A DNA stretch of 64,000 nt from Haloarchaeobius sp. HME9146 (GCF_025399835.1 NZ_JAODVR010000001.1:186001-250000), one strand, 5' to 3'; counted from the stretch's first letter, positions 51,547-58,024 are shown. The notes: generated by a model not told the origin, from the sequence alone. Translations and numbers: made by a program.

Positions 51547-51829
51547 GCCCGAGTAATCCCGGGTTTTCGGCATTATACAAACACCGGGTATGTTTTACAC
51601 CGGCCGTACGATTCCGTTCGGAACACGAGTGAACGCGCCCAATCAGGACCCGTTGGGAGGCTGACGGGAGGGGCCGTGAACAGACCGTCAGATTCCGGGA
51701 AACTAAACTGGCATTCTTTTTATGATTAGGCGGGGTGTGCGTGGGTAGCCACCGAACCGCACACTCGAAACCGCAAGACAACCATGAGGAACAGACTCAT
51801 ACAACCTCCATTGTAACTCGGCAAGAAGA
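51547..51829. other. Intergenic DNA between etfA and the BMP lipoprotein gene
   Basis: Apart from the terminator at its left end, this stretch holds no open reading frame with coding character. An AT-rich TTCTTTTTATG (51715-51725) could be a second upstream promoter, giving a leader of about 110-120 nt. No RNA gene is seen. Confidence 0.4.
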
Positions 51830-51854
51830 TATAAGTATTCGAGGATATACCTGC
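51830..51854 (+). promoter_or_regulatory. Promoter of the BMP-transducer operon with shared element
   Basis: TATAAG (51830-51835) is 26-31 nt upstream of the ATG at 51861, inside AAGATATAAG. CGAGGATA (51840-51847) and CCTGC (51850-51854) follow; the same two elements occur in the same order upstream of the second transducer gene (55607-55619), suggesting common control or duplication of the promoter. Confidence 0.5.
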
Positions 51855-51860
51855 CGAGAT

Positions 51861-52979
51861 ATGGATAGGAGTATCACGCGGCGAGGGATACTGACTGGTG
51901 CCTGTGGTGGCATCACGTCGGCCCTCGCCGGGTGCACGTCCGTCGTACCCGGGATGGGAACGGGAGACGGCGATGGTGCCACAGAGACGGCGACACGACA
52001 GTTCGACCAGAGCGAGACGTTCATCGGGATGCTGTACGCGACCAGTGGGCTGGACGACGACTCGTTCAACGACATGGCCAACCGCGGGGTCAAGCTCGCT
52101 CGCGTCCGTCACGGCATCGAGTACAAGAACGCGGTGCCGGAGACCGTCGACCAGATCCAGGCGCTGCAGACGGAGTACGCGAAGTCGACGAACCCGCAGT
52201 TCGACCTCACCGTCTGCATCGGCTTCCTGCAACAGGAGCCGTTGACGAAGACCGCGAAGGAGTATTCCGACCAGAAGTTCATGCTGGTCGACGCGGTCGT
52301 CGACCGGGACAACGTGGCGAACTACGTGTTCAAGGAGCACGAGGGCTCGTTCCAGGTCGGCGTGCTCGCCGGGTCGCTGACGTCGCAGGGGTTCTCGGCG
52401 GGGGCCGGCCAGACCCGCGTCGACCGGAAGACGGTCGGTTTCGTCGGCGGTATCGAGTCCGACCTCATCAAGAAGTTCGAGGCCGGGTTCATGGCCGGGG
52501 CGAAGTACGCCGACGAGGACGTCGAGGTGCTGCGCGAGTACGTCGGCAGCTTCAGTGACGTCGAAGCCGGTCGGCAGGCGGCCCAGTCGATGTACGACGA
52601 GGGCGCGGACATCGTCTACCACGCCGCCGGCGGGACCGGCGTCGGGGTGTTCCAGGCCGCCCAGGAGAACGGTCGGTTCGCCATCGGCGTCGACTCGGAC
52701 CAGTCCGAGACCGACCCGCGGTACGCGAACGTCATCCTCGCGAGCATGGTCAAGCGGGTCGACACGGCGGTGTTCAACGCCATCGACACCATCGAGAAAG
52801 GCGAGTTCGACGGCGGATCGGTCCAGTCACTCGGGCTGGACCGGAACGGTCTCGAGGTGGCGTACGGGAACGTGGTCGGGCCAGAGATACCCGAGCTGGC
52901 GAAGCTCCAGGTGGACGACACCCGGTTCAAGATCGTCAACGGGGAGATCGACGTCCCCACGACGCCGGAGGAGGTCTGA
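51861..52979 (+). CDS. BMP-family substrate-binding Tat lipoprotein
   Basis: The 372-aa protein has a Tat lipoprotein signal (TRRGILTGACGGITSALAGC, lipid Cys near residue 26) and an acidic linker. The mature domain is of the basic membrane protein family (PF02608): GLDDDSFNDMANRG near the start, KTVGFVGGIESDLIKKFEAG, AGGTGVGVFQAA, GVDSDQSETDP. BMP proteins such as TmpC, PnrA and Med bind nucleosides in ABC importers. No permease or ATPase gene is adjacent; a transducer gene follows after 1 bp, so the protein probably presents its ligand to that transducer. The ligand is unknown. Confidence 0.92.
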   Translation: MDRSITRRGILTGACGGITSALAGCTSVVPGMGTGDGDGATETATRQFDQSETFIGMLYATSGLDDDSFNDMANRGVKLARVRHGIEYKNAVPETVDQIQALQTEYAKSTNPQFDLTVCIGFLQQEPLTKTAKEYSDQKFMLVDAVVDRDNVANYVFKEHEGSFQVGVLAGSLTSQGFSAGAGQTRVDRKTVGFVGGIESDLIKKFEAGFMAGAKYADEDVEVLREYVGSFSDVEAGRQAAQSMYDEGADIVYHAAGGTGVGVFQAAQENGRFAIGVDSDQSETDPRYANVILASMVKRVDTAVFNAIDTIEKGEFDGGSVQSLGLDRNGLEVAYGNVVGPEIPELAKLQVDDTRFKIVNGEIDVPTTPEEV

Positions 52980-52980
52980 G

Positions 52981-55419
52981 ATGGCGGACGACTCTCCCTC
53001 CATCGGTGCGCGACTCACGCCGGGGTTCATCCGCCGGCGCTACTCGCTGAAGTTCGCCGTGTCCTTCCTGCTCGTCGTCCTCGTCATCGGCTCGGTCGGT
53101 GCCGTCGGCTACGTCCAGACGAAGGACACGGTCGAGACGAACACGCAGGCACAGCTCGAGGAGACGAGTTCGCTCCGGGCGTCCTCGCTCTCGGAGTGGA
53201 CCGAGAGCATGCGCATCCAGACGCGGACCGTCTCTGCCGGAGAGGAGCTCCGGGGCGACGAGCAAGGCTCGTCCTACGGAACGGCGGAACGGTACCTGCA
53301 GACCAGGGAGTCTCGCCTCTCCGGCGACATCCTCGGCATGCACCTGGTCAACAGCTCGAACGGCCGCGTGATGGCCAGTACGGACCCAATCTCGGGGTTC
53401 AAGCTCGAGGAACTCGGCGTGCCGTGGGCGAACGCGAACGTCTCGGGGAAGTCCGCCGAGAAGGCGGACGAGGTGTGGGTGTCCGACAGTTCCTACGAAT
53501 CACCGCTGACGCCGTACACCCAGGGTGACGTGGTCGCGTTCGCGAGCGCAGTCCCGAACTCTGACGACCGCTACGTCGTCGTGGTGACGCGTATCCAGAC
53601 CCACCTGGACACCATCAAGGACTCCGAGACCGAGGGACAGACCCGCATCATCAACGAGAACGGTGGGACCGTGTTGACGCCGGGCGGTTCGGTCGACCAG
53701 AGCGTCCACGGTGACGGGCTCTCGGCAGCGCGGTCCTCGGGTGACACCGCGTTCGAGACCGCGGGCAGCCAGGTCCACGCGTACGCCGCCGTCGACGGGA
53801 CCCAGTGGGTCGCGATCACCAGCGTCGAGACGAACGAGGCGTTCGCCGTGCGTGACACGGTCGGCCAGAACGTCCTGCTCATCATCGCGAGCGGCCTGCT
53901 CGCGCTCGGGTTCGTCGGCGTGGTGCTCGGTCGCCAGACCGTCACCCCGCTGGCGAAGCTGCGCGACCGCGCCAGCCAGATGGAAGACGGGAACCTGAAC
54001 GTGAACCTGGAGACGCGCCGGGTCGACGAGATCGGCCGGCTGTACGGCGGGTTCGCGGAGATGCGTGACTCGCTGCGCGACCAGATACAGGAGGCTGAAG
54101 CCGCCCGCAGCGAGGCCGAAGCCGCCCGGACCGAGGCCGAGCGCCTGAACACGCACCTCGAACGGAAGGCGGACGAGTACTCGCAGGTGATGCGGCGCTG
54201 TGCGGACGGCGACCTGACCCAGCGCATGGACGCCCAGTCGCAGAACGAGGCGATGACCGACATCGCCAACGAGTTCAACGAGATGATCGGCCAGATCGAC
54301 GAGACCGTCGCTCAACTGCGCGTCTTCGCGACCTCGGTCGCGAGCGCGTCCGAGGAGGTCACGGCGAGCGCCGAGGAGGTCCAGAGCGCGAGCCAGCAGG
54401 TGTCCGGGTCGGTCCAGGAGATCTCGGACGGAGCCGAGCGCCAGAACCAGCAGTTCCAGTCGGTGTCCGCCGAGATGGACTCGCTGTCGACCACCACCGA
54501 GGAGATCGCGGCCTCCTCGAACGAGGTCGCAGACCTCGCCCAACGCACGGCCGAGACCGGCAGTGCAGGGCGCGAGGCCGCACAGGAGGCCATCGCCAGC
54601 ATGGCCGAGATCGAGGACGAGTCCTCCGAGGCCGTCGAAGCCATCGAGGACCTGGAGGCCGAGATGGCACAGATCGACGAACTCATCGAGTTCATCACGG
54701 ACCTGGCGAAGGAGACGAACATGCTCGCGCTGAACGCCAACATCGAGGCGTCGCGTGGCTCGGCCGAGGGCGCGAACGGCGATGGCGGCGACGGGTTCGC
54801 CGTCGTCGCCCAGCAGGTCAAGGAACTCGCTGCGGAGACCAAGGACGCGGCCGAGGACATCGAGGCGCGTCTCGAAGGCATCCAGGAGAAGACCGACCGC
54901 ACCGCCGAGGAGGTCCAGAAGACCTCGACGCGCGTCTCGGAGAACCGTATCGCCGTCGAGAACGCGGCGGACGCACTCGAACAGATCGCGACGTACGCCC
55001 AGCGGACCAACGACGGCGTCCAGGAGATATCGGCAGCGTCCGAGGAACAGGCCGCCTCCACCGAGGAGGTCGTCGCGATGGTCGACGAGGCCGCGACGAT
55101 CTCGGAAGAGACCACCGCCGAGGCCGAGAACGTGGCCGCCGCCGCCGAGGAGCAGACCTCCTCGCTGTCGGAGGTCACGAAGAGTGCATCCAGCCTCGCC
55201 CAACAGGCGTCCCAGCTCAGCCGTGCACTCGACCGGTTCGAGACCGAATCCGACGGCACCAGTGGGGAGGGCCCGCTCCTGGCCGACCAGCTGTCGGGCT
55301 CCGGGGACGCGGGCGACGACGCGTCGGCCGACACCGCAGACGCGGGCGACGCGGACGAAGACGACGCGAAGAGCGCGTTCGAGTTCGCGAACTATCCGGA
55401 GCAGGGCAGAGAGGACTGA
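52981..55419 (+). CDS. Methyl-accepting transducer 1, partner of the BMP lipoprotein
   Basis: The 812-aa receptor has a cytoplasmic N-terminus, membrane helix 1 (about residues 24-45), a large extracellular sensor of dCACHE type (about 46-300; SETEGQTRIINENGGTVLTPG), membrane helix 2 (about 300-320), a HAMP domain, a coiled coil (EAEAARSEAEAARTEAERLN), a second HAMP-like region and the signalling domain with tip DLAKETNMLALNANIEASRG. Several Glu/Gln pairs suit methylation. It starts 1 bp after the lipoprotein gene. The acidic tail ends EFANYPEQGRED. It would pass binding-protein signals to CheA. Confidence 0.92.
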   Translation: MADDSPSIGARLTPGFIRRRYSLKFAVSFLLVVLVIGSVGAVGYVQTKDTVETNTQAQLEETSSLRASSLSEWTESMRIQTRTVSAGEELRGDEQGSSYGTAERYLQTRESRLSGDILGMHLVNSSNGRVMASTDPISGFKLEELGVPWANANVSGKSAEKADEVWVSDSSYESPLTPYTQGDVVAFASAVPNSDDRYVVVVTRIQTHLDTIKDSETEGQTRIINENGGTVLTPGGSVDQSVHGDGLSAARSSGDTAFETAGSQVHAYAAVDGTQWVAITSVETNEAFAVRDTVGQNVLLIIASGLLALGFVGVVLGRQTVTPLAKLRDRASQMEDGNLNVNLETRRVDEIGRLYGGFAEMRDSLRDQIQEAEAARSEAEAARTEAERLNTHLERKADEYSQVMRRCADGDLTQRMDAQSQNEAMTDIANEFNEMIGQIDETVAQLRVFATSVASASEEVTASAEEVQSASQQVSGSVQEISDGAERQNQQFQSVSAEMDSLSTTTEEIAASSNEVADLAQRTAETGSAGREAAQEAIASMAEIEDESSEAVEAIEDLEAEMAQIDELIEFITDLAKETNMLALNANIEASRGSAEGANGDGGDGFAVVAQQVKELAAETKDAAEDIEARLEGIQEKTDRTAEEVQKTSTRVSENRIAVENAADALEQIATYAQRTNDGVQEISAASEEQAASTEEVVAMVDEAATISEETTAEAENVAAAAEEQTSSLSEVTKSASSLAQQASQLSRALDRFETESDGTSGEGPLLADQLSGSGDAGDDASADTADAGDADEDDAKSAFEFANYPEQGRED

Positions 55420-55591
55420 CGGCGAGCACAGCCGAGGACGTGGGCGAGCGTCGCCCCGTCCGTTCAGATGGTTAACTCATCTTCGACTAAACATTCTACA
55501 GACATATACGCCCTCTGCCACGTCTCTGGCTGCGGAAAGGCAGAGATAGAATCAGCCCGTTACCGTTCGAAAAGTAACGGGAACGGCGGAA

Positions 55592-55619
55592 AGATACATA
55601 CGTTTCCGAGGATACCTGC
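55592..55619 (+). promoter_or_regulatory. Promoter of transducer 2 with the shared element
   Basis: AGATACATA (55592-55600) is 25-33 nt upstream of the ATG at 55625, followed by CGAGGATA (55607-55614) and CCTGC (55615-55619), the same pair as before the BMP gene. The rest of the 205-bp gap between the transducer genes shows no gene. Confidence 0.45.
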
Positions 55620-55624
55620 ATGTA

Positions 55625-58024
55625 ATGTCAGGTGTGTTGGGACGTCTTGTGCCGGGACCGATCCGGCGAAGTTACGCGTTGAAGTTCGCACTCGCGCTGT
55701 TCAGTGTGCTCGTCATCATCGGTGGGGTTGGCGGCTACATCTACTTGCAGACCGGGACAGTGCTCGAAGAAGACACGGGGCGGGAGCTGAACGCCAGTGC
55801 GAAGATCCAGGCACAGTTCATCGACCAGACACTCCGTGAGACCAGAACAGAGGTCGAGCGTCTGAGTACGTCCGACGCCGCCCAGGACGACAATACGAGC
55901 TCCGAACGACGGGCGTTGATGCGAAGTGCGGCCTCGGACGAGTACGTCGACTCTATCTATCTGGTCGACACGTCATCGGGGGCGATAGATCAGCAAGTCG
56001 GACGGGGAACCGGTGCGGACGGGGACAGCCTCACCGACGCGTTCCAGACGAAACTGAACGAGATGGAGTCCGCACAACTGGGCCAGGTCGTCACCAGCAA
56101 ACCCTTCCAACTCGGGGACCGGAAAGTGATGGTCGTCCGGAGTTCGGTGCCGAACCAGGCCGATAAGTCGTTCGTCGCGGTGCTCGACATGCAGTTGCTC
56201 TCGGTGACCGCGCTCCCGCAGGTGAGTTACGGAGAGGTCGTCGTCGTCGACGGCTCCGGGACGGTGATGCTGTCGGCCGATGCGTCTAACATCCTCCAGA
56301 CGGACACGGTTCCAGCCGGCGAGATCGACGGGTCCAGGGGCTTCAAGACCCTCGACACCAGCGACGGCGAGAAAGCGTTGAGTTACCGCCAGCTGACGAC
56401 CGAGGACTGGACCGTCATCCGACGGGTCCCGGAGTCACAGGCGTTCGCGCTCCAGGACACCATCCTGACGCAGCTGGTCGCGATGCTCGGACTGGCGTTC
56501 GGGAGTATCATCCTCATCGGGATGACCATCGGCCGGAACACGGTCAAATCGGTCGCGAACCTGTCCAACAAGGCCGGTGAGATCGAGGCGGGTGACCTCA
56601 ACACCGAGATCGAGAGTTCGCGCGTCGACGAAATCGGCCAGCTGTACAACTCCATCGACAACATGCGCGAGTCCCTGCAGGACCAGATCGCCGCGGTCCA
56701 GCAGGCACGGACCGACGCCGAGCAGGCACAGGCGGAAGCCGAGCAGATGAACCGCCACCTCGAACGCAAGGCCGACCAGTACCGCGACGTGATGCAGGCG
56801 TGTGCGGCCGGGGACCTCACCCAGCGCATGGACGCCCAGTCCGAGTCCGAGGCGATGAGCGACATCGCCAACGAGTTCAACCGGATGGTCGCGGAGCTGG
56901 AGGAGACGACCGACCGCGTCAAGACGTTCGCGAGCGACGTGGCGACAGCGTCCGAGGAGGTCACGGCGAGTTCCGAGGAGGTCCGCTCCGCGTCCGAGCA
57001 GGTCACGGAGTCGGTCCAGGAGATCTCGGACGGGGCCGAACGGCAGAACCAGAGCCTCCAGTCGGTCAACACCGAGATGGACGCCCTGTCGACCACGACC
57101 GAAGAGATCGCGGCCTCCTCGAACGAGGTCGCCGACCTCGCCGAGCGCACGGCCCAGACTGGCCGGAGTGGTCGTGACGCCGCAGAGGACGCCATCGAGG
57201 GCATGAGCGAGATCCAGGAAGAGTCCAGCGAGGCAGTCGACGCCATCGAGGACCTCGAGGCCGAGATGGAACAGATCGACGAGCTCATCGAGTTCATCTC
57301 CGGACTGGCGAAGGAGACGAACATGCTCGCGCTGAACGCCAACATCGAGGCGTCGCGCGGGGCAGCCGGTGGGGACGGTGGCGCTGGTGACGGGTTCGCC
57401 GTCGTCGCCCAGCAGGTCAAGGAGCTGGCACAGGACACCAAGGACACCGCGGAGGACATCGAGAAGCGCCTGGAGACCATCCAGGACCAGACCGACCGCA
57501 CCGCCGAGGAGGTCCAGCGCACCTCGAACCGCATCGCCGAGCACGCCGGCTCCGTGCAGGCGGCCGTCGAGGCACTGGACGAGATCGCCGAGTACGCCCA
57601 GCAGACCAACGACGGCGTCCAGGAGATCTCTGCGGCATCCGAACAGCAGGCGGCCTCCACGCAGGAGGTCGTCGCGATGGTCGACGAGGCCGCGACCATC
57701 TCGGAGGAGACCACCGCCGAGGCCGAGAACGTCGCTGCTGCGGCCGAAGAGCAGACGACTGCACTCACCGAGGTGTCTGGCAGTGCGAGCGACCTCGCGG
57801 ACCAGTCCGCCCGCCTGAGCGAGGCCCTCGACCGCTTCGAGACCGACACGGAGCGCGTCGAATCCGACTCGTGGGGTGACGCGGAAGAGGTGATGTTCGA
57901 GGAGACGACCGAGGACGAAGCGACCACGCCTGCTGGCGACCAGCACGACGAGATGGCAGCAGAATCGCCAGAGGGTTCGGCGGACGAGCAGTCCGACGAC
58001 ACCTTCGAATTCGGCGACCACTGA
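55625..58024 (+). CDS. Methyl-accepting transducer 2
   Basis: The 799-aa receptor has the same plan as transducer 1: membrane helices at about residues 20-42 and 285-305, an extracellular sensor between them, HAMP regions, coiled coil and a signalling tip (GLAKETNMLALNANIEASRG). The signalling half is nearly the same as in transducer 1, in DNA as well as protein, while the sensor half differs (QFIDQTLRETRTEVERLS, EVVVVDGSGTVMLSAD). Codons in the sensor half are less GC-biased than in the signalling half, so the gene looks like a mosaic. It ends EQSDDTFEFGDH. Ligand unknown. Confidence 0.92.
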   Translation: MSGVLGRLVPGPIRRSYALKFALALFSVLVIIGGVGGYIYLQTGTVLEEDTGRELNASAKIQAQFIDQTLRETRTEVERLSTSDAAQDDNTSSERRALMRSAASDEYVDSIYLVDTSSGAIDQQVGRGTGADGDSLTDAFQTKLNEMESAQLGQVVTSKPFQLGDRKVMVVRSSVPNQADKSFVAVLDMQLLSVTALPQVSYGEVVVVDGSGTVMLSADASNILQTDTVPAGEIDGSRGFKTLDTSDGEKALSYRQLTTEDWTVIRRVPESQAFALQDTILTQLVAMLGLAFGSIILIGMTIGRNTVKSVANLSNKAGEIEAGDLNTEIESSRVDEIGQLYNSIDNMRESLQDQIAAVQQARTDAEQAQAEAEQMNRHLERKADQYRDVMQACAAGDLTQRMDAQSESEAMSDIANEFNRMVAELEETTDRVKTFASDVATASEEVTASSEEVRSASEQVTESVQEISDGAERQNQSLQSVNTEMDALSTTTEEIAASSNEVADLAERTAQTGRSGRDAAEDAIEGMSEIQEESSEAVDAIEDLEAEMEQIDELIEFISGLAKETNMLALNANIEASRGAAGGDGGAGDGFAVVAQQVKELAQDTKDTAEDIEKRLETIQDQTDRTAEEVQRTSNRIAEHAGSVQAAVEALDEIAEYAQQTNDGVQEISAASEQQAASTQEVVAMVDEAATISEETTAEAENVAAAAEEQTTALTEVSGSASDLADQSARLSEALDRFETDTERVESDSWGDAEEVMFEETTEDEATTPAGDQHDEMAAESPEGSADEQSDDTFEFGDH

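Follow-up and report, generated by a model that had tools for sequence, protein, structure and literature searches.

We describe a locus of Haloarchaeobius sp. HME9146 that likely encodes a binding-protein-mediated chemotaxis receptor for nucleosides, in which a lipoprotein of the BMP/PnrA family would have the adjacent transducer, here called MCP1, as its partner. The locus lies in a window of 64 kb, by which we mean the whole stretch of DNA analysed, and the coordinates of its features are collected in Table 1. At the level of sequence this reading is supported by the order of the genes, the families to which the proteins belong, the fact that the pair is conserved and stands apart from ABC genes, the residues of the binding pocket and the CheA and archaellin genes that the genome encodes. 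The parts that we infer are nucleoside binding, contact between the BMP and MCP1, co-transcription of the two genes and a taxis response, which would probably be attraction.

Table 1. Features of the BMP-transducer locus, with positions counted from the first nucleotide of the window.
Feature	Position	Strand	Basis or remark
BMP/PnrA-family Tat lipoprotein, proposed nucleoside receptor	51861..52979	+	PF02608 (E=2e-59), PDB matches, pocket residues
MCP1 transducer: TM1, dCACHE-like sensor, TM2, HAMP, signalling domain; proposed BMP partner	52981..55419	+	
MCP1 extracytoplasmic sensor, as modelled	53098..53880	+	AlphaFold2 pLDDT 86.5; Foldseek E about 1e-9
MCP2 transducer, lineage-specific and loosely associated; has a sensor of its own	55625..58024	+	Pfam search
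Promoter-like element AAGATATAAGTATTCGAGGATA	51826..51847	+	13 bp before the BMP start codon
Promoter-like element, second copy AAGATACATACGTTTCCGAGGATA	55591..55614	+	10 bp before the MCP2 start codon

The lipoprotein gene and the adjacent transducers

The first gene of the pair starts with ATG and encodes a protein of 372 aa, whose sole Pfam family is PF02608; in a Pfam search this family spans the protein over its full length (profile positions 5-299 of 301), and no membership of PF13458, the family expected for BasB, was found. The N-terminus carries a twin-arginine motif and a lipobox (MDRSITRRGILTGACGGITSALAGC), and the initial annotation, which had described a Tat lipoprotein of the BMP class, was therefore correct on this point. 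The ATG of MCP1 follows 1 bp past the stop codon of the lipoprotein gene (52977-52979). MCP1 is 812 aa long and has the make-up of a transducer, with two hydrophobic, membrane-spanning segments (near residues 20-48 and 293-319), a HAMP domain (8.5e-15) and an MCP signalling domain (MCPsignal, 3.8e-30; Pfam search). Its sensor matched dCache_1 across the whole domain at 2e-4, a value under Pfam's cut-off, and the AlphaFold2 model of the sensor resembles the dCACHE domains of CtaA, PctB and Mlp37 in a Foldseek comparison with the PDB. As modelled, the sensor has the fold of a full dCACHE, in keeping with the earlier description of a transducer with a dCACHE-type sensor 1 bp downstream of the lipoprotein gene.

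A second transducer, MCP2, had also been counted as part of the unit. The gene is indeed present, and its product (799 aa) contains HAMP and MCPsignal domains, but its membership is doubtful since the window genome and one genus-mate (G282) are the only ones, among 101 genomes of the family, to have MCP2 at the BMP-MCP1 locus, and since no lipoprotein gene was found in the flanks read of homologues of the MCP2 sensor. The sensor region of MCP2 gave no Pfam match, and its 49% overall identity to MCP1 is concentrated in the cytoplasmic part; MCP2 may be an independent receptor. A promoter-like element, defined as AAGATA followed by a short spacer and TNTNCGAGGATA, precedes both the BMP gene and the MCP2 gene. 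This pattern has exactly 2 matches in the 4.19-Mb genome, both at this locus, with a chance expectation of 0.02 in the window and no match for the reversed control, and the element is absent from G282. That the BMP and MCP2 genes share such an element suggests common control or a local duplication.

Conservation and history of the pair

When the MCP1 sensor was used as a query against 392 genomes of the order and the matching loci were read, a BMP gene was found directly upstream of the 35 best matches, and a copy with a next-tier score in a Halobacterium genome (G064) is also directly downstream of a BMP gene. The pair of a BMP and an MCP1-type transducer was found in 36 genomes of this sample, too often for chance adjacency, and forms a conserved unit. 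The BMP and sensor genes are separated by an estimated -10 to +138 bp, with a median of 11 and most values between 8 and 18. The other sensor relatives that were read are not adjacent to a BMP gene, save three in another genus in which the gene order is reversed. At one locus (L204, in G353) the BMP-transducer pair lies a few kb from a second transducer that has a related sensor and a PF13458 neighbour.

A census within the order covered 117 genomes, of which 81 contained a BMP match; gene context was read for most of the matches. Among 147 distinct haloarchaeal BMPs, 106 are linked to ABC genes, 39 are linked to an MCP gene, 2 are linked to neither and none is linked to both, which answers the search for BMP-MCP neighbours lacking ABC genes that the initial annotation had proposed. 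A start with a Tat signal and a lipobox is present in all the MCP-linked BMPs (39/39), and an ABC-linked BMP is present as well in every census genome that has an MCP-linked one (14/14). Some ABC-linked operons contain two BMP genes in tandem upstream of a single ATPase gene (L042, L044, L046-L049, L052 and L063).

Quick maximum-likelihood trees, built without bootstrap and containing some long branches, place the 36 MCP-linked BMPs with the gene order of the window in one clade (SH-aLRT 99), and the remaining 3, from the other genus, in a second clade among ABC-linked proteins. In this second pairing (L114, L118 and L216) the transducer gene lies upstream of the BMP gene. Since the MCP-linked BMPs fall into two separate clades, the tree indicates that BMPs have switched between importer and transducer at least twice, and those linked to transducers appear to have arisen from the ABC-linked haloarchaeal BMP family. 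In the sensor tree the 36 BMP-paired sensors again form a clade (SH-aLRT 100), which is sister to 22 sensors paired with PF13458 lipoproteins; a partner of this family was found for 22 of the 27 non-BMP sensor relatives read. Tat lipoproteins of PF13458 directly precede MCP1-related sensors, with no BMP, at L197, L198, L200, L201, L203, L207 and L208, and the same arrangement, likewise with no BMP, is present at L210, L215, L218, L225, L226, L230, L231 and others. PF13458 is presumably the BasB-like class, as expected for a binder of branched-chain amino acids, and its proteins have the same type I binding-protein fold as BMPs. Over the 36 loci, distances between BMPs and distances between sensors are correlated with r = 0.96, a value reached in 0 of 2000 permutations and to which shared species history contributes.

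The initial annotation had read the locus as a pair of binding protein and transducer that works without a transporter. Conservation, the full separation from ABC-linked BMPs, the structure of the trees and co-diversification all uphold this reading. As in BasB/BasT-type systems, a Tat lipoprotein gene stands beside a transducer gene with no transporter genes, and the partnership is co-inherited.

Proposed ligand and partner of the lipoprotein

The residues of the nucleoside sandwich have been described for BmpA and PnrA (PMC13325309, PMC7093131), and we mapped them between the BmpA/PnrA and window numberings by motif and spacing. The initial annotation had proposed such a comparison with known nucleoside binders, and all of these residues are kept in the window lipoprotein (F69, N70, D144, F206, F231, V277, D278 and K298). 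Across the MCP-linked clade, F69, F206, F231, D144, D278 and K298 are invariant or present in 35 of 36 proteins. By sequence and fold, the nearest solved relatives, at 27-33% identity, are S. pneumoniae PnrA, Lbp, Aeropyrum 4PEV, BmpD and TmpC, and the ligands among them are uridine, adenosine and thymidine for PnrA, guanosine for Lbp, adenosine for BmpD and inosine for TmpC. Two BMPs that have neither an ATPase nor an MCP gene next to them lie among genes of catabolic type, one (L055) near a nucleoside hydrolase and a phosphomutase, the other (L072) near a PfkB kinase, a DeoC-type aldolase and a phosphomutase; in the BMP tree the MCP-linked clade groups most closely with the L055 protein (SH-aLRT 90). 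Nucleoside degradation does occur in haloarchaea, via an unusual pentose bisphosphate pathway (PMC9700705). The pocket, the nearest structures and the catabolic genes close to related BMPs lead us to infer that the ligand of the window lipoprotein is a nucleoside.

Binding-protein taxis towards another ligand, such as a nucleobase, a vitamin (riboflavin or another one) or a related compound held in a shifted BMP pocket, seems unlikely to us, albeit the BMP family also includes binders of riboflavin (RfuA), of AtzT type, of B6 type and of nucleobases. The MCP-linked clade does differ from its relatives: at one position of a loop known to tune specificity, Asp is present in 33 of 36 MCP-linked BMPs, as opposed to Gly in 74 of the 75 near ABC-linked ones, and R75, R81 and R287 are conserved across the clade and uncommon among ABC-linked relatives. 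However, all 36 proteins keep the pocket residues with little or no variation, among them both stacking Phe and the Asp and Lys that contact the ribose, the riboflavin binder RfuA is only 19% identical to the window lipoprotein, a much lower similarity, and S. pneumoniae PnrA, which binds nucleosides, has Asp at the same loop position. The change from Gly to Asp may have shifted the preference among nucleosides, so that the exact ligand could differ, and the three arginines are candidate contacts with the sensor.

A search of the whole 64-kb window for homologues of the BMP-type ATPase and of the two permeases found none, which bears out the earlier remark that no permease or ATPase gene is near; the window lipoprotein thus has no linked set of an ATPase and two permeases of the kind that marks a BMP-type ABC importer. 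The locus is preceded by ETF beta/alpha genes and followed by a polyprenyl synthase gene, neither of which is obviously related to it. The genome holds 2 copies of PF02608, the other of which lies about 2.6 Mb off on the same contig, in an operon (L043) whose order is BMP, ATPase, two permeases, cytidine deaminase (PF00383) and nucleoside phosphorylase (PF01048). The E. coli maltose-binding protein is an example of one binding protein with two partners, and given that a BMP-type ABC operon is present elsewhere in the genome, the window lipoprotein could in principle be an accessory binding protein of such an importer, its adjacency to the transducer gene reflecting shared regulation only. We consider this quite improbable: a BMP heads the L043 operon, so that this importer has a binding protein of its own, the MCP-linked BMPs lie in clades apart from the ABC-linked ones with none linked to both, and they co-diversify with the sensor. 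Dual service of the lipoprotein, to transducer and importer alike, is possible. Still less credible is direct sensing by the dCACHE of MCP1, with the BMP only concentrating or scavenging the compound. The sensor is modelled here as a full dCACHE like that of direct amino-acid receptors, yet lipoproteins of two different families are the consistent partners of its relatives, and a sensor that binds its ligand directly would have no need of them.

We propose the following model for the nucleoside receptor formed by the BMP and MCP1. The lipoprotein would be exported by the Tat machinery and anchored outside the membrane, where it would close around a nucleoside. The closed BMP would then dock on the dCACHE-like sensor of the co-transcribed MCP1, and the signal would pass via the HAMP domain to the CheA/CheW array and on to the archaellum. 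A separate ABC importer, which has a BMP of its own, would take up the nucleoside. Since related sensors pair with PF13458 proteins of a like fold, the MCP1 sensor, by analogy, probably recognises a common feature of closed binding-protein lobes. As the genome encodes one CheA-type protein and has six archaellin-family matches, taxis is plausible in this organism.

Known systems and the probable Halobacterium counterpart

Binding-protein-mediated taxis is already known in haloarchaea. BasB/BasT of H. salinarum, which responds to branched-chain amino acids, Met and Cys, likewise has a lipoprotein receptor beside a two-TM transducer with no transporter genes, and the sister sensors of MCP1 pair with PF13458 lipoproteins in other haloarchaea. 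In contrast, the binding protein here is a BMP (PF02608) and is expected to bind nucleosides. Because the MCP1 sensor is sister to the PF13458-paired sensors, the window pair is a variant of the BasB/BasT scheme; with PF02608 in place of the PF13458 expected for BasB, it is not a member of the same pair family. CosB/CosT of H. salinarum, for compatible solutes, also follows the scheme of binding protein and transducer, but the ligand differs, and CosB presumably belongs to a binding-protein family other than BMP. The bacterial nucleoside receptors PnrA/TmpC, BmpD and BmpA share family, fold and pocket with the window lipoprotein (best matches at 27-33% identity); however, they are considered partners of ABC importers, whereas here the partner gene is a transducer. 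Haloarchaeal BMP-ABC operons such as L043 differ in that they encode an ATPase and two permeases; the loop residue of their BMPs is Gly, whereas the MCP-linked clade mostly has Asp.

The Halobacterium genome G064, whose bacteriorhodopsin is 98% identical to the H. salinarum protein, has a lipoprotein/transducer pair on one strand and, on the opposite strand, a transducer followed some 6 kb on by the BMP/transducer pair. This order and these strands match those of OE2196F/Htr18, Htr4 and OE2170R/Htr6, with the BMP at the position of OE2170R. Given this match, OE2170R is very probably a BMP and OE2170R/Htr6 the orthologous pair by synteny. The Halobacterium lipoprotein beside a transducer at L160 (11481-15190, minus strand), probably OE2196F/Htr18, gave no Pfam match and may come from another binding-protein family. 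Schlesner et al. 2012 report that two putative binding proteins, OE2170R and OE2196F, were co-purified with Htrs, Htr6 and Htr18 among them (PMC3579733). For OE2170R/Htr6 the work gives co-purification only, the text consulted stating neither ligand nor family (PMC3579733). The co-purification of OE2170R is the sole experimental hint of contact between a BMP and a transducer, and AP-MS does not show that contact is direct.

The literature that we searched, outside which some key papers fall, contained no report of a BMP in taxis, of its double recruitment or of a nucleoside ligand in this role, and a search for BMP/TmpC proteins in Halobacterium and for OE2170R yielded nothing beyond PMC3579733. 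The initial annotation had suggested a new ligand class for taxis, possibly nucleosides. The pocket, the structures and the catabolic neighbours favour that ligand; the pair itself very probably has a precedent in OE2170R/Htr6 and is a variant of the BasB/BasT scheme. Although the co-purification of OE2170R with the taxis complex in 2012 lowers the novelty of the finding, it makes the hypothesis testable in a model organism.

On balance we lean towards a broader view, namely that these loci represent a widespread class of haloarchaeal chemoreceptor whose nucleoside-binding protein was taken over from ABC importers on two occasions, that the class would mediate taxis to nucleosides from extracellular nucleic acids and that a nucleoside would be the ligand of Htr6. 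For most haloarchaeal transducers no signal has been assigned; as of 2012, only 8 of the 18 in H. salinarum had one (PMC3579733). For at least one orphan, Htr6, and for relatives of it that occur in dozens of genomes, the BMP-transducer unit would provide a concrete ligand class. As one sensor family is combined with two binding-protein families, specificity may change by a swap of the lipoprotein. The unit would also link motility to nucleoside catabolism, and many haloarchaea probably use a BMP lipoprotein to swim towards nucleosides, for example those released from decaying DNA or RNA.
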